Positions 994 to 37,079 of a stretch of DNA of 64,000 nt are shown here, piece after piece. A program made the translations under genes and the position numbers. Below the pieces are notes generated by a model. The model saw only the letters and a list, made by a program, of their open reading frames with translations, made no database searches and was not told the origin of the DNA. Position 1 is the first letter of the stretch. Every line of letters begins with the position of its first letter. Source of the DNA: Rivularia sp. MS3 (GTDB lineage: Bacteria; Cyanobacteriota; Cyanobacteriia; Cyanobacteriales; Nostocaceae); the NCBI GenBank assembly GCA_019192545.1, contig JAHCMI010000015.1, positions 62,001 through 126,000 of the forward strand, read 5' to 3'.

Positions 994-1053
994 CATAGGC
1001 TTGGTTAAGATGAATAACCGTCTTTTAAAAAACGGCTATCCTATTCTTTGCTT

Positions 1054-1362
1054 TTATTTAACAGCAGCAGTCATTAAACCAGAGATTTCAGACAAACTAC
1101 CGGTAACAGTTACAGCAACGTCAGATTCAGCGAAGCTGTTGTTACCAATCGCAGTTACGTCAAACAATGCGGAAGCAAAGTTACCTGAGATGCTGACATC
1201 AGAATTCAAATCTACATCGATATCTTTGTTAACATCGATGTCAACGTCAGCATCGAAATCTAAGTCTAATTCAACATCTATGTTTACATCTTTGTTGATG
1301 TGAAATCCACCAAATACTTCTTCGTTGGTAGCTTCTAAGTAGTTGATATCGTTGATAATCAT
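1054..1362 (-). CDS. Double-glycine secreted peptide precursor, copy 4 of the operon (promoter-distal)
   Basis: 102 residues, identical to the other three copies. Residues 1-19 look like a C39-type leader, starting MIINDINYLE and ending EEVFGG. The predicted mature part is residues 20-102. In residues 25-55 every odd position is Asp, Glu or Asn (12 Asp, 1 Glu, 3 Asn) and nearly every even one is hydrophobic, so a beta-strand would have one fully acidic face. The C-terminal third is Ser/Ala/Gly/Val-rich. There is no Cys, so lanthipeptide or disulfide chemistry is not expected. The RBS GGAG lies 9 bases before the ATG. A hairpin variant follows the stop and then the hairpin at 961-993. Function is unknown; a secreted, possibly cation-binding peptide is inferred. 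Confidence 0.85.
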   Translation of the reverse strand: MIINDINYLEATNEEVFGGFHINKDVNIDVELDLDFDADVDIDVNKDIDVDLNSDVSISGNFASALFDVTAIGNNSFAESDVAVTVTGSLSEISGLMTAAVK

Positions 1363-1483
1363 TTGCTTTTCTCCAGTAAATTAACTAATTGTTTTTGGAA
1401 ATTGGTTTGCGAGCAATTTATTTTTACTCGCATTTATTATTTTGCTGATAGCCGTTTTTAAACGGCTATCCTATTCTTTGCTT

Positions 1484-1792
1484 TTATTTAACAGCAGCAG
1501 TCATTAAACCAGAGATTTCAGACAAACTACCGGTAACAGTTACAGCAACGTCAGATTCAGCGAAGCTGTTGTTACCAATCGCAGTTACGTCAAACAATGC
1601 GGAAGCAAAGTTACCTGAGATGCTGACATCAGAATTCAAATCTACATCGATATCTTTGTTAACATCGATGTCAACGTCAGCATCGAAATCTAAGTCTAAT
1701 TCAACATCTATGTTTACATCTTTGTTGATGTGAAATCCACCAAATACTTCTTCGTTGGTAGCTTCTAAGTAGTTGATATCGTTGATAATCAT
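1484..1792 (-). CDS. Double-glycine secreted peptide precursor, copy 3
   Basis: Identical in protein and DNA to the copy at 1054-1362. The 121-bp spacers on both sides contain two hairpins: arms GATAGCCGTTT and AAACGGCTATC just after the stop of the preceding copy, and TGCGAG...CTCGCA in the leader before this gene. The same GGAGAAAAGCAA leader precedes the ATG. No promoter like the one at 2729-2757 is seen in front of it, so it is probably expressed by read-through. Confidence 0.85.
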   Translation of the reverse strand: MIINDINYLEATNEEVFGGFHINKDVNIDVELDLDFDADVDIDVNKDIDVDLNSDVSISGNFASALFDVTAIGNNSFAESDVAVTVTGSLSEISGLMTAAVK

Positions 1793-1913
1793 TTGCTTTT
1801 CTCCAGTAAATTAACTAATTGTTTTTGGAAATTGGTTTGCGAGCAATTTATTTTTACTCGCATTTATTATTTTGCTGATAGCCGTTTTTAAACGGCTATC
1901 CTATTCTTTGCTT

Positions 1914-2222
1914 TTATTTAACAGCAGCAGTCATTAAACCAGAGATTTCAGACAAACTACCGGTAACAGTTACAGCAACGTCAGATTCAGCGAAGCTGTT
2001 GTTACCAATCGCAGTTACGTCAAACAATGCGGAAGCAAAGTTACCTGAGATGCTGACATCAGAATTCAAATCTACATCGATATCTTTGTTAACATCGATG
2101 TCAACGTCAGCATCGAAATCTAAGTCTAATTCAACATCTATGTTTACATCTTTGTTGATGTGAAATCCACCAAATACTTCTTCGTTGGTAGCTTCTAAGT
2201 AGTTGATATCGTTGATAATCAT
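1914..2222 (-). CDS. Double-glycine secreted peptide precursor, copy 2
   Basis: Identical in protein and DNA to copies 3 and 4. The leader has its GG at residues 18-19, and the mature part carries the alternating Asp/hydrophobic tract at residues 25-55. Four copies of one product point to a demand for dosage rather than to peptide diversification. Confidence 0.85.
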   Translation of the reverse strand: MIINDINYLEATNEEVFGGFHINKDVNIDVELDLDFDADVDIDVNKDIDVDLNSDVSISGNFASALFDVTAIGNNSFAESDVAVTVTGSLSEISGLMTAAVK

Positions 2223-2343
2223 TTGCTTTTCTCCAGTAAATTAACTAATTGTTTTTGGAAATTGGTTTGCGAGCAATTTATTTTTACTCGCATTTATTAT
2301 TTTGCTGATAGCCGTTTTTAAACGGCTATCCTATTCTTTGCTT

Positions 2344-2652
2344 TTATTTAACAGCAGCAGTCATTAAACCAGAGATTTCAGACAAACTACCGGTAACAGT
2401 TACAGCAACGTCAGATTCAGCGAAGCTGTTGTTACCAATCGCAGTTACGTCAAACAATGCGGAAGCAAAGTTACCTGAGATGCTGACATCAGAATTCAAA
2501 TCTACATCGATATCTTTGTTAACATCGATGTCAACGTCAGCATCGAAATCTAAGTCTAATTCAACATCTATGTTTACATCTTTGTTGATGTGAAATCCAC
2601 CAAATACTTCTTCGTTGGTAGCTTCTAAGTAATTAATATCGTTGATAATCAT
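2344..2652 (-). CDS. Double-glycine secreted peptide precursor, copy 1 (promoter-proximal)
   Basis: The first gene of the array. The protein is identical to the other copies. The DNA differs by silent changes near the start (AATTAC in place of the array's CAACTAC region) and one base in the GGAGAAAAGTAA leader. It is preceded by a 70-nt leader with a 5' hairpin and by a near-consensus promoter at 2729-2757. N-terminal motifs of the kind LNYLE followed by a Gly-Gly occur in other short cyanobacterial secreted peptides. I could not assign a named family. Confidence 0.87.
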   Translation of the reverse strand: MIINDINYLEATNEEVFGGFHINKDVNIDVELDLDFDADVDIDVNKDIDVDLNSDVSISGNFASALFDVTAIGNNSFAESDVAVTVTGSLSEISGLMTAAVK

Positions 2653-2698
2653 TTACTTTTCTCCAGTAAATTAACTAATTGTTTTTTGGGAATTTAGT

Positions 2699-3153: not shown

Positions 3154-3930
3154 TTAAACATGGCTTGTTAATTCTTTCTCTGTATTATTATCAATATCTA
3201 ACTGAACTGATATTTGTAAAAGCTGAACTTTCTTCTTTAACCAATAAGCAAACAATTCTGAAATAATTTGTTCGCGTAACTTATCATCTAATTCGGACTT
3301 GATAGTTTCTTCTAGCCAAATTAAATAGACAGCTTTCGGTGTGGTAATTGGCTTGAGAATACCAAGGGAAGAACTAGCAAATACAGCTGCTGCAATTTCT
3401 GGACGGAAATCTTTACGATACTTAACTCCCTGATACCCATAAGCGCGACGAAGCTCTGGCTCCTGGATATACATACGAGCAATTTCTGGAAACGTAATTT
3501 CCCTTTCCTCTACAGCATAAAATAACTCTAAAGCCAAATCTCTATCTTCGAGAACAACTTCATAGGTAACAGCAGCTTCGTAATTAAGGCGATTTTCGTA
3601 AAAGTATTTTTCAACTTGGGATGCAAATAAATGATTTGCTAACTTCTGGGAAATCAGATTGTTGTAAACTAGTTTTTCAAAATCTTTTATAGACAAATGA
3701 TGTTTATCTAGCCAAGTCCAAGTATCTTTAGCTGTAGCCAGTTTTTTTTCTAAGCGAAATTTATCTCCTTCCTGCTGCAATTCAGCTTCTGTGACTTCAA
3801 TTCCAGCTTTTTCCGCTGCTTCGGTAATTATTTGTTCGGAGGCGATCGCTTCTATTACATTGGGAATATCACAGGATCGCTTTAGCTTATTAATTACGTC
3901 TAAAGTTGAAATGTGAATATTTTCGGGCAT
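3154..3930 (-). CDS. PpiC/SurA-like peptidylprolyl isomerase family protein
   Basis: 258 residues. The N-terminal half is helical and resembles the SurA/PrsA chaperone core (residues about 10-105). The C-terminal part resembles a parvulin domain: an F-x-E-I-A-R motif near 145, then YGYQGVKYRKDFRPEIAAAV and a region ending in IWLEE. There is no signal peptide, so it should act in the cytosol, unlike SurA. Proteins of this type occur beside C39 ABC exporters in cyanobacterial peptide clusters, where they are thought to hold or fold the precursor before export. Here it lies between the peptide array and the HlyD gene and has a paralogue at 10952-11698. The parvulin active-site residues are not all obvious, so it could be purely a holdase. 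Confidence 0.72.
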   Translation of the reverse strand: MPENIHISTLDVINKLKRSCDIPNVIEAIASEQIITEAAEKAGIEVTEAELQQEGDKFRLEKKLATAKDTWTWLDKHHLSIKDFEKLVYNNLISQKLANHLFASQVEKYFYENRLNYEAAVTYEVVLEDRDLALELFYAVEEREITFPEIARMYIQEPELRRAYGYQGVKYRKDFRPEIAAAVFASSSLGILKPITTPKAVYLIWLEETIKSELDDKLREQIISELFAYWLKKKVQLLQISVQLDIDNNTEKELTSHV

Positions 3931-4435: not shown

Positions 4436-4645
4436 TTATAAGCATGAATATTCAGATACTGGCAGAAGTGATAATTCTTTATCTATTCTTTGTGCTAGTT
4501 TATAAGCCATTTGGGGCGGATTTCGGTAGTTACTTGCTGTTTTTCTAAATCCCCACCGTCTAGCTTCAACTTCTGACACTCCAAATTCTTCAGCTAATTT
4601 ATTGTAAGACCAGCTATATTTTCTCATTAAATCAATAGGATGCAT
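4436..4645 (-). CDS. Small helix-turn-helix-like protein, 69 residues
   Basis: The protein starts MHPIDLMRKYSW and continues with LAEEFGVSEVEARRWGF at about residues 17-33, which has the look of a short helix-turn-helix (xLAxxFGVSxxxxRRW). A strong ribosome binding site, AAGGAGT, lies 7 bases before the ATG, which supports a real gene despite its size. It lies upstream of the HlyD/ABC genes' ends and downstream of nothing obvious, 154 bases from the HlyD stop. It may be a small DNA-binding regulator of the export region, but only the local motif and the RBS support this. Confidence 0.65.
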   Translation of the reverse strand: MHPIDLMRKYSWSYNKLAEEFGVSEVEARRWGFRKTASNYRNPPQMAYKLAQRIDKELSLLPVSEYSCL

Positions 4646-4799: not shown

Positions 4800-6347
4800 T
4801 TACATGTTTAACCCGTTTTTCTGTAATTTTTTGAATGGATCTAATACAAAATCAATTATCCGACGTTGACGAATCACAACTTCAGCGTCTGCTGTTTGAC
4901 CGGGCATTAAAGTAACCCGTTTTTCGCCGTTATCTACATACTGACGGTCTAAATTGATTTCTAGTTCAAAGCTTTCACTATTTCCTTGGGGAGTTTGCTG
5001 GACTTTTGAATCGGGAGACACCCAAGCGACTGTACCTTCAACAATGCCATACTCTTGATAGGGATAGGCATGAAATTTAACTTTCACAGGCATTCCTACT
5101 TTCAAAAAACCACTATCTTGTATAGGCATACTGGCTTTAAGTACAACGTCGGCATTTTTAGGAGCAATTTGGGCTATTCTTTGCCCTGGTTGTACTACTT
5201 CTCCAGGTTTACCAACCGGAAACTCAAAAATAGTCCCATCAATCGGCGATCGCACTATTCTCTGCTGTAACTGTAACTTCAAAGATTGGATTTGACTGGT
5301 GGTTTGAGCAATTTGGGATTCAATAGATGAAATTTGAGTTTGAGTATCTTTGAGTTGTTCTTGAGTCCGCAATATAGCAAGTTTAGATGTTTGCAACAAA
5401 GTTTTATAACTGCTTTGCTGTTCTTGTAATCTAAGTTTAGCTTGTTTAATATCAGCTTCTAGCTGATTCATAGTTGCCTGATAGCGATTAGTTTCTTCGG
5501 TTAATCTTAACTGTGCTTGTTTCCCATCGGATAAAGCTCTGTCATAGAGTCGTTTGCTTTCTTGCTGCTCTTTTCTAATAATGTCAATTTGATTTGCTGA
5601 AACTGCTCCATCTTTAACTAATTTGCTAAAGCGTTCAACCTGTTTGTTATCTATGCTCAAACGATTTTGAGCAAACTTTTGTTCGTTACTATTAGTCTTG
5701 ATTTGCTGTCTTACTTGTTCGAGTAAAGCTTTTTTCTCTAATCTTTGTAATCGATAAAGACTTTGTTTCGCATCCAAATTCTGTTTAGCTTGTTCAACTT
5801 GGGCAGCTTTTTCGAGAGCTTGTGATTGGTTTTGCTGTTCTTGAACGTTTATTGTAGATAAAAGCTGATTTTTGATGATTTCTAACTGTACTTTCTGATT
5901 TTCTAATCCTGAAAGTTTTGCTTCAATCTGCTGTAATTCGGTTCGTAAAATATCTGAGTCAAATTCTAGAAGAACTTGACCAGATTTAACAGTATCACCT
6001 TCCCTAACTTTTACAACTTTAACGCTTCCACCAGTTCTAGTATCCAGCTTTCTAGTTGCACCTTTTGGTTCAATGCGTCCCCTGGCACTTCCAGTTTCAT
6101 CAACCTTGGAAATAGTTGCCCAAGGTAAACCGATTAATACAAATCCGACTAGTACGTATAGTACCCCTCTTGTCCATAGTTTAGGTAGAGCATCGAGCAG
6201 TTCCTCGGTAGCGTAATGTAAATCTCTTCCGGCTGTATCTGTCTGAGACTTTTTATCTGGATTCTCAACTGTAGAAAGATGCTGTTGCGAATCGCTATAT
6301 TCTTCCTTTGCGACTGCTGATGAACTATTTGTTAAAGGATGTGGCAT
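4800..6347 (-). CDS. HlyD-family membrane fusion (periplasmic adaptor) protein
   Basis: 515 residues with the classical layout. A cytoplasmic N-terminus of about 60 residues is followed by one membrane segment (VLYVLVGFVLIGLPWATI, about 62-79). A lipoyl-like half (GGSVKVVKVREGDTVKSGQ, about 105-123) comes next, then a long coiled-coil hairpin (about 130-365, Gln/Leu-rich). The second lipoyl half (RSPIDGTIFEFPVGKPGEVV) and beta-barrel follow to the end. It links an inner-membrane ABC exporter to an outer-membrane channel. It lies 59 bases downstream of the ABC gene on the same strand, so the two probably form an operon. No TolC gene is in the window, as expected when TolC is encoded elsewhere. 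Confidence 0.93.
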   Translation of the reverse strand: MPHPLTNSSSAVAKEEYSDSQQHLSTVENPDKKSQTDTAGRDLHYATEELLDALPKLWTRGVLYVLVGFVLIGLPWATISKVDETGSARGRIEPKGATRKLDTRTGGSVKVVKVREGDTVKSGQVLLEFDSDILRTELQQIEAKLSGLENQKVQLEIIKNQLLSTINVQEQQNQSQALEKAAQVEQAKQNLDAKQSLYRLQRLEKKALLEQVRQQIKTNSNEQKFAQNRLSIDNKQVERFSKLVKDGAVSANQIDIIRKEQQESKRLYDRALSDGKQAQLRLTEETNRYQATMNQLEADIKQAKLRLQEQQSSYKTLLQTSKLAILRTQEQLKDTQTQISSIESQIAQTTSQIQSLKLQLQQRIVRSPIDGTIFEFPVGKPGEVVQPGQRIAQIAPKNADVVLKASMPIQDSGFLKVGMPVKVKFHAYPYQEYGIVEGTVAWVSPDSKVQQTPQGNSESFELEINLDRQYVDNGEKRVTLMPGQTADAEVVIRQRRIIDFVLDPFKKLQKNGLNM

Positions 6348-6406: not shown

Positions 6407-9400
6407 TTAACCTGCTTGTGCTAACTGCTGTTGATTGAGGTAATAATAATGACCTTTTAGAGCAATTAATTCGTCATGGGTGCCGCTTTCTACTAATACG
6501 CCTTTATCCATGACCATAATTAAGTCTGCGTTACGTACTGTAGATAAACGGTGAGCGATAATTACACTGGTTCTCCCTTTGAGAATTGTTCTAAGATTGT
6601 TCTGAATAATCCGCTCAGATTCCGTATCCAGATGACTAGTAGCTTCATCAAACAACAATAAGCGAGGATTACCAAGCAATGCACGGGCAATTGCCAAACG
6701 TTGGCGTTGTCCGCCCGAAAGTAGCCCACCTCCTTCACCGATGTGGGTTTCATAGCCTAATGGTAAGAGCCGAATAAATTCATCTGCTCCTGCCAATTGT
6801 GCGGCTTGAATAACGTCATCAAGAGTCGCTTCTGGGTGAGCGATGGCAATATTTTCGCGGATTGTTCCACCGAATAAAAAGGTGTCCTGATCTACTACAC
6901 CGACTTGAGAGCGCAGGGATTGTAAAGCAATACCGTTAATGTCCTGATTATCAATAAGTACTTTTCCGTCTGTGGGTGGATATAAACCTAAAATCAGTTT
7001 AGAAAGAGTTGTTTTACCCGAACCACTACGCCCTACCAAGGCTACCATTTGCTCGGGTTTAATTTCAAAACTAATATTTTCTAGTATATTAGCTTTACTT
7101 TCGGCATGATAGCGGAAGGTAACATTATCAAATCTTATGTGACCGTTAAGTCTATCTAAGCATTTACGAGGTTTATTTTGTAAGTCTTCTTCAGGTTCTG
7201 CCTCCAGAACATCATTAAGTCGTTCTGTAGAGATAATAATTTCCTGAAATTGGTTCCATAATTGAGAAAATCTTTGGAAAGGACCTAATACCTTACCTAC
7301 CAACATATTGAATGCGACTAACTGACCAACAGTAAGTTCTCCTTGAATAACCTGCCATGCTCCAAACCACATTAATCCAGTACTTGTAAAAGTTTGAATA
7401 GAGCTACTAAGCATGTTGAGACGAATCCCAATAACCTTGGCATTAAAGGACTTTTTGACCCGATTGTTTAATAACTCTTCCCATCGCCATCTTACTGTCT
7501 GTTCAATTGCAAGCGATCGCACTGTGCGAATACCCGTTAATGATTCGATAATATAACTACTTTCTTCAGCCCCAGCATTAAAGATTTCTCTGGAAATACG
7601 CCGTAGAATACCCGTACTGGCTAGAGCCAAAATGAAAAATGGCGGTACGGTAATCAGTACAAATAATGCCATTTTCCAACTATAGGAGAACATCAGACTC
7701 AGATAGACAACCAATGTCAGCATATCCAGCACAATCGCCAGGGTTTGTCCTGTAAGAAAACTTTGGATCTTCTGGTTTTCTTTGATGCGCGAAATAATAT
7801 CCCCTACATAACGGGATTCAAAGTAGGAAAGAGGTAGTCGGAAAGTGTGTTTGATAAAGCCTACTAACAGGGAAACGCTAATACGGTTAGCCGTATGAGT
7901 GAGAAGATAAGATCGCACTCCGTTCATGGCAATGCTGAACAAACCAAAAACAATCATCCCCAAACCAACGGCATTCAGAGTCGGAATACTGCGCTGTACC
8001 AGAACTCTGTCAAGCAGCAATTGAGTGAAAATAGGCGTTACTAATCCAAATAGCTGCATTATTACCGAAGCAATAAATACTTCTATCAAGACTTTGTAAT
8101 GAGGTTTAACTAACTCAAAAAACTTCCATAAACCAACATCTTGATTCTCGGCATCTTTGAGTAAGGATGTTGCTTGCAGTAACAATGCATAGCCACTCCA
8201 ACCAGCATTAAACTCTTTGCGCGTCAGAGTACATTGACCTCGGGCCGGATCGCCTACTATTACATGAGTACTTGTAATCCGATAAACAACAATAAAGTGG
8301 TTGCCCTCCCAGTGAGCAATTGCTGGAAAAGATTGTTCGGCAAATTTTTCCAAGGTAGCTTTGACTGGACGAGTTGCAAAACCAACACTTTCTGCTGCGG
8401 ATGCCAAAGCACGTAAAGAAGCACCACTGCGTCCTGCATTTGTAATATCTCGCAAACGACTAACGCTAAAAGATTTACCCCAGTAACGACCAATCATTAC
8501 TAAGCAAGCTGCACCACAGTCGGAAGCACTTTGTTGAGCATAATAAGGGTACCGCTTTGTTAAGTGTCCCCACCAGTGTCCTATTTTTACCTTTGGGCTG
8601 GGAAAATATACACGTGATGGCTTTTTATTTACTTTATTATTCGCTTCTACTTGCTTATTTGCACCTGGAAAAGGAATTATTTTATTACTGGAGTGCAAAT
8701 GTTCTAATGAAGACCTTCTTCGAGATGGCTGAGGATGTAAAGCAATTTTAGGAGAAATCTCCCTTTCACCATCTATAAATTCTGCTAATTCGGGACAATG
8801 TTGCAGGGCAGTTTGTAAATTGGCTCGATCCAGAAAATAAGCAACGCTTGGTTGCTCTACCTTTAACTTATCTTGTTTTGTATAAGCATATATTTGACCT
8901 AAAGTTAAAGTGTCGCCAGCATAATTTTGTATTTCACCTCGATGCAACAGCCATAACAAGCAATCTTTTGGCGCGGTAATTTGTTCGGATACCTTAAATG
9001 AATGCTTTTCAAACAGCGATAACGCCTGCATCAAACCCGGTACTTGGGAAGAATGGTGAGGAAAATTAGAATTTTCCAAACATAAAAGTATCAAATCCCA
9101 ATTTTCTGCTTGCTTTAATAATTTTTGACGAATTATAGGATAATTATCTATCAGAGGCTGCAAAGTTTCTCGCTTGAGAAAACAAAGTTTTAAATTCTGA
9201 GATGCTCTAGCAGCATAAGGAATAAAATCTTGCTCTTCAAATAAAGTAGCTTCACCAAAAGAAGCTCCTACTGATAGGGTTGTAATCAAGTTTTCGGAAT
9301 AATCTAAAAGTCTAATTTTCCCCTCAAGAACTATATAAAGTCCCTTTTCGGCTTCTGTAAGTTGCCAAAACAGCTTTGCAGTAGGTATTTCTATCGTTTC

Positions 9401-9493
9401 TGCTGCTTCCAAGCAACTTCGTAGTTCTTCGGTAGAGATATATTCACCTAAAACAGAGGTGATTGTTTCACTGATATTAGCTTCTAAAAACAC
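6407..9493 (-). CDS. C39-peptidase-containing ABC exporter with N-terminal cyclic-nucleotide-binding-like domain
   Basis: 1028 residues. Residues 1-140 resemble a CRP-type effector fold (LYIVLEGKIRLL, SVGASFGEATLF). The C39 peptidase starts near 318: YYAQQSASDCGAAC with the catalytic Cys near 324, GNHFIVV with the His, and VGDPARG with the Asp. Six membrane segments fill about 465-745. The ATPase domain has Walker A GRSGSGKTT near 820, signature LSGGQRQRLAIARAL near 930, Walker B LLLFDEATSHLD and the H-loop AHRLST, all intact. It should cut double-glycine leaders and export the peptide together with the HlyD protein next door. The identical peptides at 1054-2652 are the obvious candidate substrates. 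The architecture equals that of HetC at 15633-18746, so the two are paralogues. It could also serve other double-glycine peptides encoded elsewhere. Confidence 0.93.
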   Translation of the reverse strand: MFLEANISETITSVLGEYISTEELRSCLEAAETIEIPTAKLFWQLTEAEKGLYIVLEGKIRLLDYSENLITTLSVGASFGEATLFEEQDFIPYAARASQNLKLCFLKRETLQPLIDNYPIIRQKLLKQAENWDLILLCLENSNFPHHSSQVPGLMQALSLFEKHSFKVSEQITAPKDCLLWLLHRGEIQNYAGDTLTLGQIYAYTKQDKLKVEQPSVAYFLDRANLQTALQHCPELAEFIDGEREISPKIALHPQPSRRRSSLEHLHSSNKIIPFPGANKQVEANNKVNKKPSRVYFPSPKVKIGHWWGHLTKRYPYYAQQSASDCGAACLVMIGRYWGKSFSVSRLRDITNAGRSGASLRALASAAESVGFATRPVKATLEKFAEQSFPAIAHWEGNHFIVVYRITSTHVIVGDPARGQCTLTRKEFNAGWSGYALLLQATSLLKDAENQDVGLWKFFELVKPHYKVLIEVFIASVIMQLFGLVTPIFTQLLLDRVLVQRSIPTLNAVGLGMIVFGLFSIAMNGVRSYLLTHTANRISVSLLVGFIKHTFRLPLSYFESRYVGDIISRIKENQKIQSFLTGQTLAIVLDMLTLVVYLSLMFSYSWKMALFVLITVPPFFILALASTGILRRISREIFNAGAEESSYIIESLTGIRTVRSLAIEQTVRWRWEELLNNRVKKSFNAKVIGIRLNMLSSSIQTFTSTGLMWFGAWQVIQGELTVGQLVAFNMLVGKVLGPFQRFSQLWNQFQEIIISTERLNDVLEAEPEEDLQNKPRKCLDRLNGHIRFDNVTFRYHAESKANILENISFEIKPEQMVALVGRSGSGKTTLSKLILGLYPPTDGKVLIDNQDINGIALQSLRSQVGVVDQDTFLFGGTIRENIAIAHPEATLDDVIQAAQLAGADEFIRLLPLGYETHIGEGGGLLSGGQRQRLAIARALLGNPRLLLFDEATSHLDTESERIIQNNLRTILKGRTSVIIAHRLSTVRNADLIMVMDKGVLVESGTHDELIALKGHYYYLNQQQLAQAG

Positions 9494-10951: not shown

Positions 10952-11698
10952 TTATGTACTTAGTTCAAAATTGCAATACATACAGTCAACTTCGGCATCT
11001 AACCATTGTTGAAACATATTATGAAGAATATCGTGATAGCGTTGGGGAGTTAATTCTGCTGGTATATAGTCTTCAACCATAAACAGATGATAGCCATTGT
11101 CGGTTTTTATTGGGCCGACTAACTGTTTTGGAGAAGTACTAAATACTAGAGGTGCTATTTCTGGTGTAACAGCCCATCGGTAAACTTTGCCTTCGTAGCC
11201 GCATTTATATCTACGATTCTCATTTATATCGTGAAGTCGAGCTGCTTCGTAAAAACTGATCTCACTTTCTTCGATCTGATAGTACAATTCCTGAGCCAAT
11301 TTTTCATTGCTTACAACAAATTGATACAAAATCACTTGTTCAAACTCAGAACGGTTTTGCATAAAAAATTTTTCTACTTCCTCACCGAATAGCGCCAAAG
11401 CCAGCTTTTGTTCGAGCAAACGATAGCGAATTCCGATTTCCCAGTCTAGAGGAGCTAACATATGCTGCTCTAGCCATCTGATTGTATCGCTAGCTTTTTC
11501 TAGACGCTTTTCTCTACGCTGGCGGTTTGCTTCAATCTCAATTTCTTCTGTAGTAATATTTATACCTTTTGTTTGTGCTGTTTTTTCAATAATTCTTTGA
11601 TATAAAATTTTGGTACATATTTCTTTTAGTGTTATGTCTCGTTTGAGAAAGTTAATAATTTCATCAGGCTCCATAGCTATTTTTAATTGATTATTCAT
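10952..11698 (-). CDS. PpiC/SurA-like peptidylprolyl isomerase family protein, second copy
   Basis: 248 residues with no signal peptide. The N-terminal helical region is followed by a parvulin-like domain at about 130-225: an F-Y-E-A-A-R motif, then CGYEGKVYRWAVTPEIAPLVF and GPIKTDNGYHLFMVED. That order, with the GYHL motif, is typical of PpiC domains and better kept than in the paralogue at 3154-3930. The two share length, order and the RRxYGYxGxxYR-type block. It lies upstream of the exporter genes on the same strand but is separated by 1.4 kb, so it has its own promoter. A role as cytosolic foldase for exported precursors is inferred from context. Confidence 0.75.
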   Translation of the reverse strand: MNNQLKIAMEPDEIINFLKRDITLKEICTKILYQRIIEKTAQTKGINITTEEIEIEANRQRREKRLEKASDTIRWLEQHMLAPLDWEIGIRYRLLEQKLALALFGEEVEKFFMQNRSEFEQVILYQFVVSNEKLAQELYYQIEESEISFYEAARLHDINENRRYKCGYEGKVYRWAVTPEIAPLVFSTSPKQLVGPIKTDNGYHLFMVEDYIPAELTPQRYHDILHNMFQQWLDAEVDCMYCNFELST

Positions 11699-13285: not shown

Positions 13286-13756
13286 TTAATTGAACTTGTA
13301 CGAATTAACTGGATGTCCTTGATTTTCCTGCTGCTTAAAATCGGGCTTCATTGATTGATATTCGCGTACTTGGACTTCTAACCATTTGTCAATATTGGCT
13401 CCGCCACGAATTTCAGTTTTTTGTTTACCAACAACTTCTAGATAAGCCAAGTCTTTAATTTTATTTAAACAACTTGGTGACATATTGCGATCCTTTCTTT
13501 GGCTTGAGCCCTGCTTGGCTATTTTTATATTTTCATTTTGCTGTGATTTCGATTTTTTCGGAGAATGTTCTTTAATTAACCTGTTATAAGTGCGGTAGGG
13601 AATGTAATGTAGAGGATTGTAACCAGCAAAGCGAAGCATTAAAACACAAGCCCAAGAATACTTGCCTGCTAGAATTGCTTCAACGACTTGGTCAAATTGT
13701 TCTGAATGGATTGTCTTATCTAAATTACTACTAATACCTATTGACTCTTGATTCAT
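13286..13756 (-). CDS. hetP: Heterocyst commitment protein HetP
   Basis: 156 residues. The N-terminal block, FDQVVEAILAGKYSWACVLM followed by LRFAGYNPLHYIPYRTYNRL (about residues 21-60), is the hallmark of the HetP family. The rest is charged and poorly conserved, as in known HetP proteins. In Anabaena HetP promotes commitment to heterocyst differentiation and is controlled by HetR through a palindrome upstream of the gene. Here it follows hetC on the same strand, as in Anabaena, but a 221-residue ORF intervenes. A HetR-like site lies at 15097-15113, about 1.34 kb before the start. The biochemical activity of the family is not well understood. Confidence 0.92.
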   Translation of the reverse strand: MNQESIGISSNLDKTIHSEQFDQVVEAILAGKYSWACVLMLRFAGYNPLHYIPYRTYNRLIKEHSPKKSKSQQNENIKIAKQGSSQRKDRNMSPSCLNKIKDLAYLEVVGKQKTEIRGGANIDKWLEVQVREYQSMKPDFKQQENQGHPVNSYKFN

Positions 13757-13946: not shown

Positions 13947-14612
13947 TTACCTCAACCATCGTAATTCCACTGTATAAGGCTTAGCTAATTCTTCTTCCCT
14001 AAATTGCGTGTTTCCATAGGCAGAAGCAGCTTTTCCATACATCAACTGACAAAATCGATTGGTTAAAAGTGCAAACAGTATTTTAACTTTGTTTTGCTGG
14101 TTGAAAATAGTTATAAGCCAGGAAATAGACCAATTTGTTGGTGATACAGCGGTACTATCGTAGAAAGCTTCTATAACCCGATATAGGCTACTATCTACCA
14201 TAAACTCAGGCTCGATCGGATTGCGGACTTTTACCGAACGCAATTGTCTTTTCTTGAAAAAGCAAGTTTCTGTAATTTCTTTTGCTTTTCTTCTCATCAC
14301 AGAAATCATCACAAAATTTATGCTAACCGATAAGACTAAAAAATAAACTACTTCCAAAGACTTATTTAATAATGCCCGCAACAATACACCTAGGAATCTT
14401 AGATTTGAGGGGGCTATCTTAACTGTAAAGAAACCATTAGCATCAACTGTATTTAGCGCATTTAGAAAAGCTAAGACGATGAAATTAACCCCAAATATTA
14501 TTGTGCTTTGGGAAAATAAACCTTCTTCGGGATGCAAACTGTGCTGGTTCATCCCTACAATGCCTGCTGACCATAGATTTTCGACTGCATTTAACCTGAC
14601 GATCCTTTCCAT
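13947..14612 (-). CDS. Unknown ORF between hetC and hetP, two hydrophobic segments
   Basis: 221 residues, no recognised family. Hydrophobic stretches lie near residues 38-52 (TIIFGVNFIVLAFLNAL) and 88-108 (VVYFLVLSVSINFVMISVM), the second followed by RRKAK, so a small membrane protein with positive-inside topology is possible. AAAGGT lies 9 bases before the ATG, a modest ribosome binding site. It lies 190 bases before hetP and would be read on the hetP messenger if transcription starts near the HetR-like site. It could be a chance open frame in the long hetP leader. Confidence 0.45.
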   Translation of the reverse strand: MERIVRLNAVENLWSAGIVGMNQHSLHPEEGLFSQSTIIFGVNFIVLAFLNALNTVDANGFFTVKIAPSNLRFLGVLLRALLNKSLEVVYFLVLSVSINFVMISVMRRKAKEITETCFFKKRQLRSVKVRNPIEPEFMVDSSLYRVIEAFYDSTAVSPTNWSISWLITIFNQQNKVKILFALLTNRFCQLMYGKAASAYGNTQFREEELAKPYTVELRWLR

Positions 14613-15632: not shown

Positions 15633-18600
15633 TTACATATCTAATTGCTGTTGTATTAAGCTTGAATAAATCGTATTTCTTGCCATCAATTCTTCATGAG
15701 TACCTTGGTCTGCTAAAATACTTTCATCGAGAACGATAATAGTATCGGCATTTTTGATGCTATTTACATTTCTGGTCAATATAAAAGTAGTGCGAAGCCC
15801 TTCGGAAGTATTAATCAAAGCACTATTAAGACGTGCTAAATTTTGTCGGAACTGATACCCCCAAGGCGCATCGACACAATTATTAGTTTCATCAAAAATT
15901 AAAATACGCGGATTTTTAACAAAAGCTCTAGCGATCGCTATTTTTTGCAGTTGTAACCTCGGAAGTATTGTTCCCCCTTCCCCTACGACGGTGCTATAGC
16001 CTAAAGGTAGGGATTCTATAAAAGCGTGGACTCCTGCAATTTTTGCAGCAGCTTGAACTTGTTCGAGAGAATATTCTCGATTGTACAAAGTGATATTTTC
16101 TAAGATACTTCCCGAAAACAGGAAAAAATCCTGCGGAATCACAGCTAATTGACGACTTAGAGAATGAGGAGAAACCTTGTGAATATCATGTCCATCAATC
16201 AGAATGCGCCCGCTATCGGGACAGCACAAGCCAGCAAGCAATTTAACAATAGTACTGTTGGCAGAAGCATTACGTCCGACGATACCAATAGTTTGTCCCG
16301 CCTTAACGCTAAAAGAAACATTTTGTAAAATATTCTCTGCTTGTGAATCAAGTTTGCCTGTAGCTAATTCGTTAAAACTGACATTTTCAAAATACACCTC
16401 GCCGCGAATAGCGGGCAGCACGGCTGAAGCTGTTTGTTTCTCTGGCGCTTGGTTGGTAGCTAAAACATTATCGAGCTTTTCAATAGAGGTGACAATTTCA
16501 GAGAATTCATCCCGTAGCTTGACTAATGCCAATATTGGGTTTACGGTATTACCGATAAGCATGGTGAAAGCAATAAATTCACCTAACGAAATTTGAGAGT
16601 TTATAGTCATTTTGATGCCCCACCACAACACAATGGCACTGCCGAGGTAATGAATCAAACTACTGGCAAACTGGGAAAAATTAGTTAAGTTTCTGCCTTG
16701 TTGGCGCGTTTCGATTGTCCGATGAAAATATTTTTGCCAGCGTGCGTACAAAGAATGTTCGGCATTTTCAGTTTTGATTGTAGTAATACCGGTTATAATT
16801 TCTACCATCGCCGAGTTTTGTGTTTTCAAATCAAAAGAATATTGATGCTCAATTTTTTTCAGAAATAAGCTCGAAAACACCAATACAAAGATTGTTGCTA
16901 AAATAAAACTCACTACAATCGAGGTAAGTTGCCAACTGTAATAAGCCATTAGCCCAAAGTAAACAGCCGTCATCAACCCATCCAAAATTGTAGTTATAGC
17001 TTGACGGGTTAAAAAGCGATGAATTTTAGGATTTTCTTGAATTTGACACAAAATGTCCCCTATTCTACGGGATACAAAGAAAGATAATGGTAATTCCAGA
17101 ATACGAGCGATAAAATCACTGGTTAGAGTTAAATCTAAGCGGTTAGATAAATAGTCTAGAAAATACTGGCGCAGTGCCTTAAAAGCAGTACTTCCAAATC
17201 CAAATACTAGAAAACACAAAGCAAAAATATTTATTGAATCTAAGCTAGAGCCAGCGATAAAAGCATCTATGACAGTTTGAGCTAGTACTGCTGGAACTAT
17301 GCTTAAAAATGGCAAAAATATCGAAATAACTGTAATTATTGCCAGCAGAAACAGATTATTTCTGAAAAAATCGTAATATCTTTGAAAACTCAAAATTTCA
17401 TTCTTATTATTAAAAAAAATCTCTGTTGGAGATAAAAGTACGGCATATCCTGTAAAACTGGCTTCAAACTCTTTATAAGAAACCCATTTTTTACCTATAG
17501 CTGGATCTGAAACTAATACAGATTTTTCTTTAATTTGCCATACAACTATATAGTGATTTCCCTGGTAATGAGCTATCCAAGGTAATGTTTGCAACTTAAG
17601 TTGATTCAACGAACCTCTGACAGCTAAAGCTTGATATCCTAAGCATTCAGCAGCATTAGCTAAATCGTTTAACTCTGCACCCATAGAATTTATGTGTGCA
17701 ATAGAACGTAGACTATTTATACTAAAACGTTTACCCCAGTATTTACTAATCATCGCCAAAGTTGCCGCACCGCAATCTGACGAACTTTGTTGTTGAATAA
17801 AAGGGTAAATTTGAAACCAGCTTCGCGGAGGATGTTGATTTGTTAATGCAAAAGTGTCATCACCACACTTGGGAATTTTCGGTTGGATGCTTTTCGATTC
17901 AATCTCGTCATTTTCCTGAATATCTAAACCGTTATCAGCAGTTTTGAAATCCGATACAATCGTCTTAACTGAATCAACATATTGCTTGGGTAGATAAAAC
18001 AGCGATAAATTAGTTCGAGATACAAAATTAGACTGCATTCTCTGGGGATGTCCCCAGGTTTCTCCCACTTTCGGCGGACGATTTTTCTCCGAAATGCTGT
18101 CAATTTCTCCACTAACAAGCCAGAAATAACCGTCACAGAAGGATGAAGCCATCAAACTACAGCCTGCATCAATTTCAGTGCTGGCAAAATAAGGAAGTAT
18201 TTTTTGTAAATTAAAAGTATTTTGCGAGCGAAATTCTGTAAGAGTTTTGAAAAAAATCAACTTCTGAAGTGATTGACTTTTTTGTGAGAAATAATCGGAT
18301 AAAGCAGGGTAACGCTGCAACCAGACATCAAGTTTCTCTACAGAAATTTGAAAAAGCACTCCAGGAGTAGATGCGATAGCTCGATACTCTTGATAATGAG
18401 TGCAAAATATATTGTCTCCTCCAAAAACTTGATTTGGGTGAAGTAATTGGATTGATACTTCCTTTTCCAAAGATGCATCAAAAGCTAGCAAGCGGATTTG
18501 CCCTTTTATAAGTAAGTAAACCGCACCACCCTCAGCAGGTAAATCATCAGCGCAATAATACTTAGTTACTTCATCACCTAATTCAAACTCACGAGCTATC

Positions 18601-18746
18601 CAAGCCTCTTGAAACTCAGATGGGCAGTTAGTATCTTCAACAACTTGCTTCCAAAGCTGGTAAATAGCTTTAGAAGCAGCAGATGACGGAATATTTTTTG
18701 TATCATTATCCGATTTCTGAACTCCCAATCTTGGGTACGAGTCCAT
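15633..18746 (-). CDS. hetC: HetC, heterocyst differentiation ABC-exporter-like protein with C39 peptidase domain
   Basis: 1037 residues, with hetP downstream on the same strand. An N-terminal cyclic-nucleotide-binding-like region (AVYLLIKGQIRLLAF, HPNQVFGGDNIF) leads into a C39 domain: QQSSSDCGAATLAMI with Cys near 324, GNHYIVVW with His, VSDPAIG with Asp. A membrane domain and an ABC ATPase domain follow. The ATPase motifs are degraded. Walker A reads GRNASANST (Lys replaced by Asn) near 824, the signature reads ILPRLQLQ instead of LSGGQ near 930, and the H-loop His is Arg in TRNVN near 990. Walker B ILIFDE is kept. In Anabaena hetC is an NtcA target needed early in differentiation. The identification rests on domain order plus synteny. 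ATP-driven export by a homodimer looks unlikely; peptide cleavage or a partner ATPase is inferred. Confidence 0.9.
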   Translation of the reverse strand: MDSYPRLGVQKSDNDTKNIPSSAASKAIYQLWKQVVEDTNCPSEFQEAWIAREFELGDEVTKYYCADDLPAEGGAVYLLIKGQIRLLAFDASLEKEVSIQLLHPNQVFGGDNIFCTHYQEYRAIASTPGVLFQISVEKLDVWLQRYPALSDYFSQKSQSLQKLIFFKTLTEFRSQNTFNLQKILPYFASTEIDAGCSLMASSFCDGYFWLVSGEIDSISEKNRPPKVGETWGHPQRMQSNFVSRTNLSLFYLPKQYVDSVKTIVSDFKTADNGLDIQENDEIESKSIQPKIPKCGDDTFALTNQHPPRSWFQIYPFIQQQSSSDCGAATLAMISKYWGKRFSINSLRSIAHINSMGAELNDLANAAECLGYQALAVRGSLNQLKLQTLPWIAHYQGNHYIVVWQIKEKSVLVSDPAIGKKWVSYKEFEASFTGYAVLLSPTEIFFNNKNEILSFQRYYDFFRNNLFLLAIITVISIFLPFLSIVPAVLAQTVIDAFIAGSSLDSINIFALCFLVFGFGSTAFKALRQYFLDYLSNRLDLTLTSDFIARILELPLSFFVSRRIGDILCQIQENPKIHRFLTRQAITTILDGLMTAVYFGLMAYYSWQLTSIVVSFILATIFVLVFSSLFLKKIEHQYSFDLKTQNSAMVEIITGITTIKTENAEHSLYARWQKYFHRTIETRQQGRNLTNFSQFASSLIHYLGSAIVLWWGIKMTINSQISLGEFIAFTMLIGNTVNPILALVKLRDEFSEIVTSIEKLDNVLATNQAPEKQTASAVLPAIRGEVYFENVSFNELATGKLDSQAENILQNVSFSVKAGQTIGIVGRNASANSTIVKLLAGLCCPDSGRILIDGHDIHKVSPHSLSRQLAVIPQDFFLFSGSILENITLYNREYSLEQVQAAAKIAGVHAFIESLPLGYSTVVGEGGTILPRLQLQKIAIARAFVKNPRILIFDETNNCVDAPWGYQFRQNLARLNSALINTSEGLRTTFILTRNVNSIKNADTIIVLDESILADQGTHEELMARNTIYSSLIQQQLDM

Positions 18747-19500
18747 CTTTTAATCTCTAAATTAAGTAACTTTATTAACAATATTCATTTTCTTGAAAGG
18801 TAGTATTGAAGAGCTTTAATTATTTTAAAAACAAGCTTTATTTTAATTGTCAACCACTGAAATTGCTCTTTGCACCCGTATTAATAAACACTAATTGCTT
18901 GTTCGTTTATATGATTGACTGTTAGTGATTGTACTTAGACTTATTTCTTAAAATCAAACATTCAGCTAGCAAAACCCATATTTTTGTTTTAGTAGAGCAT
19001 TAATTACTATTAAATGCATTCTTATTAAATTTCTGCCCCTATCGTCAATAAACATCTTATACTTTATCGAAGTTTTACTTCTACTTTAATTAGTGTTCAT
19101 TGTTTCCAGTAAAATGATTATGTATTTTTGAGTACAACTTCTGATGAGTAAATAATTTATAATCAGATACTTTTAGGATCTTAGTTCTTGATAAAAGCAT
19201 TGATATTATCTTTTTTTTCACACATTCTTTTTAAATAATCTGATTCCTGCTTGCGAAACTTGTTCATTGCGAACATATATTTAAGTATTATTAGCTGTGA
19301 TTATAATTAAAGCTGATATGATTTGCATTTTAAAAATACAGATTTTATTTTTTTAGCTTTAGGAAAAATAGCCTAAATATTAATAATTGGCATTGCTAAA
19401 CAACCATTAGATAGGTAAAAGGTAATCGGTAATAGGTCAGAAATTGCTTTTGCTTCAACTCATGACTTACGTCCTTCATAGCCTCTTACCTTTTGAGAAT
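18747..19500. other. Gene-free stretch upstream of hetC
   Basis: 754 AT-rich bases. It contains a perfect NtcA-type box at 19122-19135. No other gene or hairpin was recognised. A long hetC leader fits what is known in Anabaena. Confidence 0.5.
19122..19135. promoter_or_regulatory. Candidate NtcA-binding site upstream of hetC
   Basis: GTATTTTTGAGTAC is an exact GTA-N8-TAC, the NtcA consensus, 376 bases upstream of the hetC ATG. A -10 hexamer at the ideal 22-base spacing is not clear on the minus strand; a TAAAGT lies about 33 bases beyond. hetC is an NtcA target in Anabaena, so the site is plausible but unproven. Confidence 0.45.
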
Positions 19501-35075: not shown

Positions 35076-37079
35076 CTAACTCCTTCCCACCAACTTATCC
35101 CTTAACTGCTTAATCCTATCTCTAAACTTCGCAGCTTCTTCAAATTGCAGATTTTTCGCTGCATCTTTCATTTGTGCTTCTAAATTATTAACTAATTGCG
35201 GAATATCTTCCAAAGGAATTTCATCAACGTGTTCGTCTACAACTTGTAAATCTTGTGCATTTAACCGTCGGGATACTTCTAAGAAAGATAAAATCGCATT
35301 ACTAGATTTCTTTTTAATAATTGGTTTGGGAGTAATATTATGCATCTTATTGTAAGCCGTTTGAATACCGCGACGGCGTTCGGTTTCATCAATAGCTTTG
35401 ATCATGCTATCGGTTAATTTATCGGCATACAAAATAGCTTGTCCTCTAATATGACGTGCAGCTCTACCAATTGTTTGAATTAAAGAACGCTCCGCACGTA
35501 AGAATCCTTCTTTATCCGCATCTAAAATTGCCACTAAAGAAACTTCCGGTAAATCTAATCCTTCCCTGAGTAAGTTAACACCAACCAATACATCAAATAC
35601 ACCATCCCGTAAGTCCTGAATAATTTCAATTCTTTGAATCGAATTAATTTCGGAATGTAAATACCTAACACGAATACTGTTATCTTCTAAATACTCGGTT
35701 AAATCTTCAGCCATTCGCTTGGTTAAGGTAGTAATTAAAACCCGTTCGTTAAGGTCAACTCGGTCTTTAATTTCTCCCAGTAAATCATCAATTTGACCTT
35801 CAGTTGGACGTACAATCACTTCTGGATCAATTACTCCAGTCGGTCTAATAATTTGTTCGGCAATATTATCCTCAGAAATTTCTAACTCCCAATTTCCAGG
35901 AGTTGCAGAAACGAAAATACACTGATTTACTTTTTGCCAAAATTCTTCTGCTTTCAAAGGACGATTATCAGCAGCACTGGGAAGACGAAAACCATGCTCA
36001 ATCAAAACTTTTTTTCTGGCTTGGTCGCCATTATACATCCCGCGAATTTGCGGAACGGTAACGTGAGATTCATCAATTACCAGCATCCAATCTTTGGGAA
36101 AATAATCAATCAAACACTCCGGAGGTTCTCCAGCTTTTCTTCCGGCTAAGTGACGCGAATAGTTTTCTACGCCGTTACAATAACCAACTTCTCGCAACAT
36201 TTCTAAATCGTAGCGACAGCGTTGATCTATACGCTGTGCTTCTAATAATTTATTAGCTTCTTCTAATTCTGCCCTACGTGCTTTTAATTCTGCCTCAATA
36301 TCCGTACAAGCAATTTCTAATCTGTCTTTGGGTGTAACAAAGTGACGAGCGGGATAAAGATTTACTGCTGGTAGACTTTGTAATATTTCACCTGTAACCG
36401 GATCGATATAACGAATCGCGTCGATTTCATCACCGAAAAATTCAATGCGAATAATTCTATCTTCGTATGCAGGTCCAATTTCTAAAACATCACCGCGAAC
36501 TCTAAACTTTCCCCGACCCATTTCAATGTCGTTACGGCTATACTGAACTGCTACTAAAGCTCTGAGTATTTCCCGCTGATCTACTTCCATGCCGACTTGA
36601 AACGGAATCGCTGCATTTAAATATTCTGTGGGCATCCCCAAACCATAAATACAGCTAATGGAAGCAACAACAATTACATCTTTACGTTCAAATAAAGACC
36701 TTGTTGCTGAATGTCGCAACATGTCAATCTCGTCGTTAATTTGAGCGGTTTTTTCTATATAAGTATCGGTAACGGGAATATAAGCTTCAGGCTGGTAATA
36801 ATCGTAATAACTAATAAAATATTCCACAGCATTGTTAGGGAAAAACTCGCGCAATTCGTTACAAAGCTGTGCTGCGAGAGTTTTATTATGAGCCAAAACA
36901 AGGGTAGGTTTACCTATGTTTTCTATTACCCTGGCAATCGTGTGAGTTTTTCCAGTACCAGTTGCACCTAAAAGCGTTTGATAGCGAGTCCCTGCTTCAA
37001 TGCTTTCCACAAGCTGCTCGATAGCTTTGGGCTGGTCACCGGTGGGTTCAAAAGGGGCTTTAACCAGAAAATTTTTCAT
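35076..37079 (-). CDS. uvrB: Excinuclease ABC subunit B
   Basis: 667 residues, the normal length. UvrB is the damage-verifying helicase-like subunit of nucleotide excision repair. Walker A GATGTGKT lies at about 40, the beta-hairpin [12 protein letters not shown] near 95, helicase motifs follow ([49 protein letters not shown] in pieces, QTIGRAARH), and the C-terminal UvrB/UvrC coiled-coil motif is present ([19 protein letters not shown]). It is transcribed alone on the minus strand. Confidence 0.97.

Follow-up and report, generated by a model that had tools for sequence, protein, structure and literature searches.

Wang, Fewer and Sivonen (2011, PMC3140520) described cyanobacterial "bacteriocin" gene clusters in which the precursor genes number from one to sixteen, 58 "other" precursors being tabled in their group II. 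In Synechococcus elongatus PCC 7942, the four small double-glycine (GG) proteins EbfG1-4 enable biofilm formation, and their efficient secretion needs the C39 cysteine of PteB (PMC4997328). An amyloid phenotype of EbfG1-3 was reported in a test system (PMC9981879). HetC has been described as an exporter whose substrate is unknown, and no leader-bearing gene is described near hetC in Nostoc 7120 (PMC10986499). Here we analyse a stretch of 64,000 nucleotides from Rivularia sp. MS3 (contig JAHCMI010000015.1, positions 62,001 to 126,000; hereafter the window), in which a tandem array of four genes for a 102-residue double-glycine protein stands beside genes for a C39-type ATP-binding cassette (ABC) exporter. 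We propose that the array supplies the cargo of a dedicated type I C39-ABC secretion cassette and that it encodes a bulk extracellular or surface product. We put the probability of this reading at about 0.6.

The array consists of four minus-strand open reading frames (ORFs) of 102 codons, located at 1054-1362 (copy 1, distal), 1484-1792 (copy 2), 1914-2222 (copy 3) and 2344-2652 (copy 4, promoter-proximal). Each gene spans 309 bp, the period is 430 bp, and all four ORFs encode one identical protein, in agreement with the initial annotation. Tandem Repeats Finder places the repeat at 1030-2694 (period 430, 3.9 copies, 99% matches), the best-scoring of ten rows for the window. The array had been called perfect. 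The period holds, as do the 121-bp spacers (1363-1483, 1793-1913 and 2223-2343), all three identical, and copies 1-3 have base-identical coding sequences, but copy 4 departs from them by two silent substitutions and is preceded by a flank of its own.

Several elements on the minus strand surround the cistrons. A hairpin with a 10-bp stem follows copies 2-4 (1447-1470, 1877-1900 and 2307-2330); the terminator scan gives the same palindrome as a plus-strand site. Sequence reading and folding reveal another small hairpin, GCGAG..CTCGC, before the distal copies (1409-1431, 1839-1861 and 2269-2291), which reads GTGAG..CTCAC before the proximal copy (2700-2722), one pair being changed on both sides. 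This pre-gene hairpin is also seen ahead of homologous genes in several relatives. Directly upstream of the array is a promoter-like TTGACT-17-TATATT (2729-2757), a consensus match only; the stretch contains seven such sites against a shuffle mean of 11.1, that is, they are not commoner than chance. After the last copy, a long inverted repeat, AAGCCTGCT..AGCAGGCTT (960-992), looks terminator-like by eye and is absent from the terminator scan. The corresponding hairpin folds after the last copy in relatives (L036-L038).

In the translated ORFs, Gly-Gly occupies residues 18-19, which gives a 19-residue double-glycine leader and an 83-residue mature part, and Cys is absent; both features had been correctly reported before. 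The mature part carries a net charge of -14. Asp, Glu or Asn (D/E/N) is found at every second residue from 23 to 55, and 0 of 20,000 composition-preserving shuffles reach that. The alternation noted earlier as a solid acidic face is real and beyond shuffles, but it covers 17 positions from residue 23, not 16 from residue 25. In five comparisons of the window with relatives, the ratio of nonsynonymous to synonymous substitution rates (dN/dS) of the mature part is 0.11-0.27, and dN of the leader is 0. Judged by these ratios the ORFs of the array are under purifying selection and are thus real genes.

The exporter cassette, which the initial annotation does not mention, lies immediately upstream of the array on the same strand. 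Its core is a 1028-residue protein, C39a (6407-9493), in which a cyclic-nucleotide-monophosphate (cNMP)-binding domain precedes the peptidase C39 and ABC exporter domains (PF00027, PF03412, PF00664 and PF00005, all above cut-off). The C39 Cys/His/Asp triad and, in the nucleotide-binding domain (NBD), Walker A and the signature are all intact. A 515-residue HlyD-type adaptor is encoded at 4800-6347 (TIGR01843 above cut-off). Nearest the array is the gene of a 258-residue SurA/PpiC-like protein, PPIa (3154-3930), which matches TIGR04500 and the Pfam rotamase models PF00639 and PF13145 only below cut-off. A second PpiC-type rotamase of 248 residues, PPIb (10952-11698), matches both Pfam models above their cut-offs. 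No M16 peptidase or other modification gene was recognised between array and exporter in library scans. With the C39 exporter, HlyD and PpiC-like genes 0.5-7 kb upstream, the earlier proposal of a small, leader-bearing, multi-copy protein that is most likely secreted is strengthened.

This organisation is conserved. Named loci of the family were identified by a leader-pattern scan followed by tblastn confirmation, hence without reference to flanking genes, and 61 were found. At 45 of the 49 loci with at least 7 kb upstream, an exporter set lies upstream on the same strand, either as C39-ABC, HlyD and PpiC-like genes (34 loci) or as a variant with C39-ABC, HlyD and HetP (11 loci); the other 12 of the 61 loci are too short to judge. 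Because of this conserved co-location and of the intact motifs, export of the array product by the adjoining machine is well supported, as far as location and motifs can indicate.

Two neighbouring features may be mentioned. A conserved 69-residue ORF, sm69 (4436-4645, minus strand), has no family match in library scans; many relatives have a counterpart in the same place, between the HlyD and PPIa genes, with 75-94% identity, and it looks helix-turn-helix-like by eye. A second C39-ABC/HlyD/PpiC-like cassette (L172, contig C47:34001-44000; L074) is found about 17-23 kb past the array on the same contig. An M16 peptidase gene (L172:211-1761) and several unlike ORFs with GG leaders accompany it.

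The array protein has no family match at E ≤ 1 in Pfam, NCBIfam or PHROGs. Among PDB sequences a single chain was hit, at a non-credible E of 1.2, and tblastn gave no matches in plasmids. The searches thus yielded no characterised family. The NHLP/N11P precursor models, which the Pfam and NCBIfam copies used presumably contain, are not among the hits of 55 family members at E ≤ 0.1 in these two libraries, and a literal search of the literature for four leader strings returned no occurrence. Family hits among the 55 relatives are scattered and weak, with at most four members per family; the best, CBM60 (0.00068 in one member), was treated as chance. The initial annotation had stated that it could not name these peptides. 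The precursor family indeed has no name, but the type of gene cluster was described by Wang et al. in 2011.

At E ≤ 0.1, 59 of 150 related genomes contain relatives, a count that includes chance acidic matches such as, probably, the partial, acidic ones in G102, G118 and G141. A profile search across the class retrieves the family in 48 of 388 genomes, themselves a draw from a larger group. The members share the leader type MII(S/N)D(L/I)NYLE...GG, common to an unnamed cyanobacterial family. M1, I3, D5, N7, G18 and G19 are invariant in 32 relatives from the whole-protein search, with a similar picture in the 55-member set; both sets were chosen by eye or regular expression for a GG leader and the 61 loci by leader pattern, so that leader conservation is partly by construction, and the regular expressions overlook copies with unusual starts. 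The mature parts vary around a loose common pattern, GN.A.A...A.A.G.NT, followed by a Ser-rich tail. Tandem groups of 2-4 copies occur at 11 of the 61 named loci. Copies within a genome differ at 2 (window), 3 (G003), 8 (G006) and 16 (G005) of 309 bases, as compared with 17-42 between genomes. These smaller within-genome distances point to copies kept alike, unevenly, by repeated recent duplication or by gene conversion.

The following pathway can be proposed. Each 102-residue precursor would be recognised through its 19-residue leader by the C39 domain of the adjoining exporter and would be cut after Gly-19. The 83-residue acidic protein would pass through the ABC exporter and HlyD, and then through an outer-membrane channel encoded elsewhere, the PpiC-like protein possibly helping. 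The tandem copies, together with a possible promoter of their own, the hairpins around the cistrons and the terminal terminator-like repeat, may raise the dose. The product could be an EbfG-like component of the sheath or of the biofilm matrix. By analogy with EbfG of Synechococcus, we infer a protein of the matrix or surface that is secreted after C39 processing and amplified in dose, and for which self-assembly is plausible. Through the array, a widespread unnamed family of small cyanobacterial proteins that are probably secreted is linked to one particular exporter cassette; it is also a natural example of an export substrate whose gene has been duplicated in tandem repeatedly.

Some observations weigh against this proposal. 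Such an exporter is missing upstream on the same strand at 4 of the 49 loci (L078, L101, L105 and L132), that of L105 being on the other strand. The two copies of G005 are 16 bases apart, about as far as a G005 copy is from a G003 copy (17), and homogenisation is thus uneven. Parnasa et al. (PMC4997328) credit mature EbfG with no homologs in other cyanobacteria. Finally, two AlphaFold runs, one with the precursor and one with the mature family (target L126), gave predicted local distance difference test (pLDDT) scores of 50.5 and 65.1, with only a C-terminal hairpin of modest confidence; self-assembly gains no structural support from these two poor models.

Other explanations of the locus were considered. 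The four-copy state is read from a draft assembly of 174 contigs in which three units are base-identical, as an assembly artefact would leave them. This origin seems very improbable to us, as the proximal copy is distinct, like the sequence on either flank, and the array, at 63.1-64.7 kb of a 132-kb contig, is far from the contig ends. Furthermore, the congeners G005 (6 contigs) and G006 (3 contigs) have two-copy arrays at the corresponding position, which supports the tandem arrangement and not the number four, while G013 (5 contigs) carries four similar copies of another family member. The four genes might instead encode the precursors of an antimicrobial peptide that is left unmodified and leaves the cell through the adjoining cassette, and the name bacteriocin was indeed given to this cluster type by Wang et al. 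2011 (PMC3140520); export by C39 and HlyD proteins is moreover typical of microcins. However, a mature part of 83 residues with a net charge of -14 and a selection that is purifying, not diversifying, make a bacteriocin unlikely, and no immunity gene was recognised between the array and HlyD, though such genes may be unrecognisable.

The acidic alternation raises the question of calcium. A secreted protein whose alternating carboxylates bind or nucleate calcium in the sheath would account for the run of 17 alternate D/E/N positions that no shuffle reproduces, and the start of a protein with RTX Ca2+-binding repeats (PF00353, E 1.8e-48) is encoded directly downstream of the array at 1-639 on the minus strand, extending past the window edge. 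Yet at p < 0.05 the D/E/N run reaches significance in no more than 17 of 55 members, and the hydrophobic/polar alternation in 16 of 55; other members have Lys/Asp or Asn/Thr at the alternating polar positions. Net charge over the 55 members ranges from -20 to +4, with a median of -2, and no RTX model is matched by the array protein. The carboxylate face is therefore a local elaboration, not a family-wide trait, which makes Ca2+ binding unlikely as a shared function and weakens the earlier suggestion of a Ca2+-binding peptide family; we give a calcium protein little credence here too, although the downstream RTX protein keeps a local Ca2+ theme possible. A developmental or intercellular signal tied to heterocyst formation has also to be weighed, HetC being considered the exporter of an unknown substrate (PMC10986499). 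The array and its cassette lie 10.9 kb from the match to a HetP-family protein of 156 residues (13286-13756, minus strand; NF037966, 121 bits for a cut-off of 45), on the same strand, and 13 of 34 genomes have a HetP gene 7.9-11.1 kb from the peptide, the two sharing a strand. These 34 genomes, of which 23 have a HetC-like match at E ≤ 1e-200, were picked for carrying the peptide, and the other 21 show no such linkage, some being on short contigs. The family also stands beside exporters in genera such as Moorena, Oscillatoria and Microcoleus, which are not known to form heterocysts. A scan of the window, with 1 kb on the downstream side of the array, found no exact NtcA- or DIF-type site near it; the closest exact matches are at 19122 for GTAN8TAC (NtcA-type) and at 36118 for TCCGGA. 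Identical multi-copy genes fit a bulk product better than a signal, and we regard a signalling role as doubtful.

The same stretch also bears on HetC and HetP themselves. Upstream of hetP, at 15633-18746 (minus strand), a 1037-residue exporter with the order cNMP-C39-ABC is labelled HetC-like by position, not by comparison with HetC of Nostoc 7120. It keeps the C39 triad within the motifs SSSDCGAATLA, GNHYIVVWQ and VSDPAIG, and its ATPase motifs are degenerate (Walker A, VGRNASANSTIV; signature, ILPRLQLQKIA). Within HetP, residues 99-119 (13400-13462, minus strand) form a leader-like motif, KIKDLAYLEVVGKQKTEIRGG. A GG-leader-type motif in HetP was published by Wang in 2011 (PMC3140520) and again in PMC4558948. 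Scored with a profile of 69 peptide leaders, 27 of 53 HetPs exceed 5 bits (10.7 for that of the window), as do 0 of 2,750 shuffles, the best of which reaches 4.9; the HetP set comprises 55 distinct sequences, two of which are shortened views of another in the set. In the hetC-hetP gap, a 221-residue ORF (13947-14612) shows about 32-70% identity over parts with congeners and may be conserved non-coding DNA. In Anabaena, hetP is followed by the gene of the 84-residue PatC (asr2819). The genome also has a second HetP gene, the surroundings of which (L173) added nothing to the present argument.

These observations suggest, tentatively and at rather under even odds, that hetC-hetP is a decayed operon of the C39-ABC/HlyD/HetP-like/GG-protein/PpiC kind, with the array protein in its cargo family; HetC would natively cut HetP at its GG motif and, in this genus, would act as a peptidase with a disabled ATPase. 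The 11 named loci with the HetP variant (in Moorena, Oscillatoria, Microcoleus, Hydrococcus and others) have the order C39-ABC, HlyD, HetP-like, peptide. A PpiC-like gene is present in 10 of them, after the peptide in nine and before it in L097. In a tree of 90 C39 exporters, the 18 HetC rows and L150 form one supported group, which falls among the HlyD-HetP exporters if the cassette exporters are taken as the other side. Constraining the other 14 HlyD-HetP exporters to a clade is mildly disfavoured (approximately unbiased test, p 0.033). HetC rows are defined here by position, with HetP downstream and no HlyD match, L150 falling outside the label solely for its HlyD fragment; the tree is quick and unrooted, has some long branches and leaves out exporters with fewer than 850 aligned residues in one piece (among them HetC of G007, and L088). 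Same-strand HlyD-like remnants were detected in 6 of 19 hetC-hetP gaps (L150, L171, L154, L151, L141 and L146) at E ≤ 1e-3, the best at 1.4e-20, with E-values computed for the set of 19 gaps only. No remnant appeared when the queries were reversed or shuffled or when the targets were reversed, and none was found in the window's own hetC-hetP gap.

Erosion of the ATPase can be followed in the motifs. The C39 Cys, Walker A and the signature are all kept in 15 of 15 HlyD-HetP exporters and in 54 of 54 cassette exporters. Under the same strict patterns, only 6 of 18 HetC rows retain both Walker A and the signature (L143, one residue off with its Lys kept, is scored degenerate), and 16 of 18 keep the C39 Cys. 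All six HetC rows from the genus have a degenerate signature and five a degenerate Walker A, L138 being the one that keeps it; among the six, the Walker A lysine is lost only in the window. Within the genus, C39 is the best-conserved domain of HetC (75.7%, the NBD reaching 66.1%); the cassette exporter shows the reverse, C39 (90.7%) standing below the transmembrane domain (95.4%) and the NBD (93.1%). C39 (63.9%) and the NBD (61.2%) differ little when all 18 HetC rows are compared; domain bounds in these comparisons are approximate. HetC matches in two congeners (G006:C1:488609-491719 and G007:C262:1191-3878) contain one in-frame TAA each.

Universal cleavage of HetP by HetC is disfavoured by two HetC rows, L144 and L147, that have lost the C39 Cys and kept the ATPase motifs, and by the loss of GG in 3 of 18 partner HetPs (L144, L152 and L153). 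In Nostoc 7120 an ATPase residue of HetC is essential (Rachedi et al., PMC10986499), so that loss of the ATPase would be lineage-specific. Over-expressed HetP makes up for the loss of hetC (Corrales-Guerrero et al., PMC4133259), a result that fits with HetC acting through HetP, without showing cleavage. A search confined to the open PMC literature found no published link between HetC, HetP and HlyD, and HetC does not figure in PMC3140520. If the decayed-operon idea is true, HetP is a concrete candidate for the unknown substrate of HetC; should hetC-hetP derive from a GG-protein export operon and HetP bear a cleavage motif, the target of HetC becomes testable.

Comparison with the described systems places the locus as follows. 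HetC has the same cNMP-C39-ABC domain order as the cassette exporter (PMC10986499, PMC4133259), but no adaptor gene stands beside hetC and its NBD motifs are eroded in this genus. HetP has a motif that resembles the array leader; however, it is a differentiation factor, and its motif, at residues 99-119 of 156, is not N-terminal. EbfG1-4 and PteB of S. elongatus PCC 7942 are akin to the array in that several small GG-leader proteins are encoded in a row and secreted with the aid of a C39 exporter. In that system the four proteins are distinct, whereas the array copies are identical, and the likeness is one of gene layout and export. The layout is that of the group I/II "bacteriocin" clusters (PMC3140520), which have a long-type C39 ABC exporter with an N-terminal CAP_ED/cNMP domain, HlyD, a SurA-type rotamase, one to many double-glycine precursors and adjacent HetP-like genes. 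The window likewise contains a long cNMP-C39-ABC exporter, HlyD, a rotamase (PPIb) and a GG precursor near the exporter. Neither the near-perfect tandem array nor the alternation of acidic residues appears in the available portions of that paper; the array precursor family is without a model in the Pfam and NCBIfam copies used. Since the layout agrees with groups I and II, the array cluster, on the criterion of gene content, is of a kind already described, of which it is a new member.

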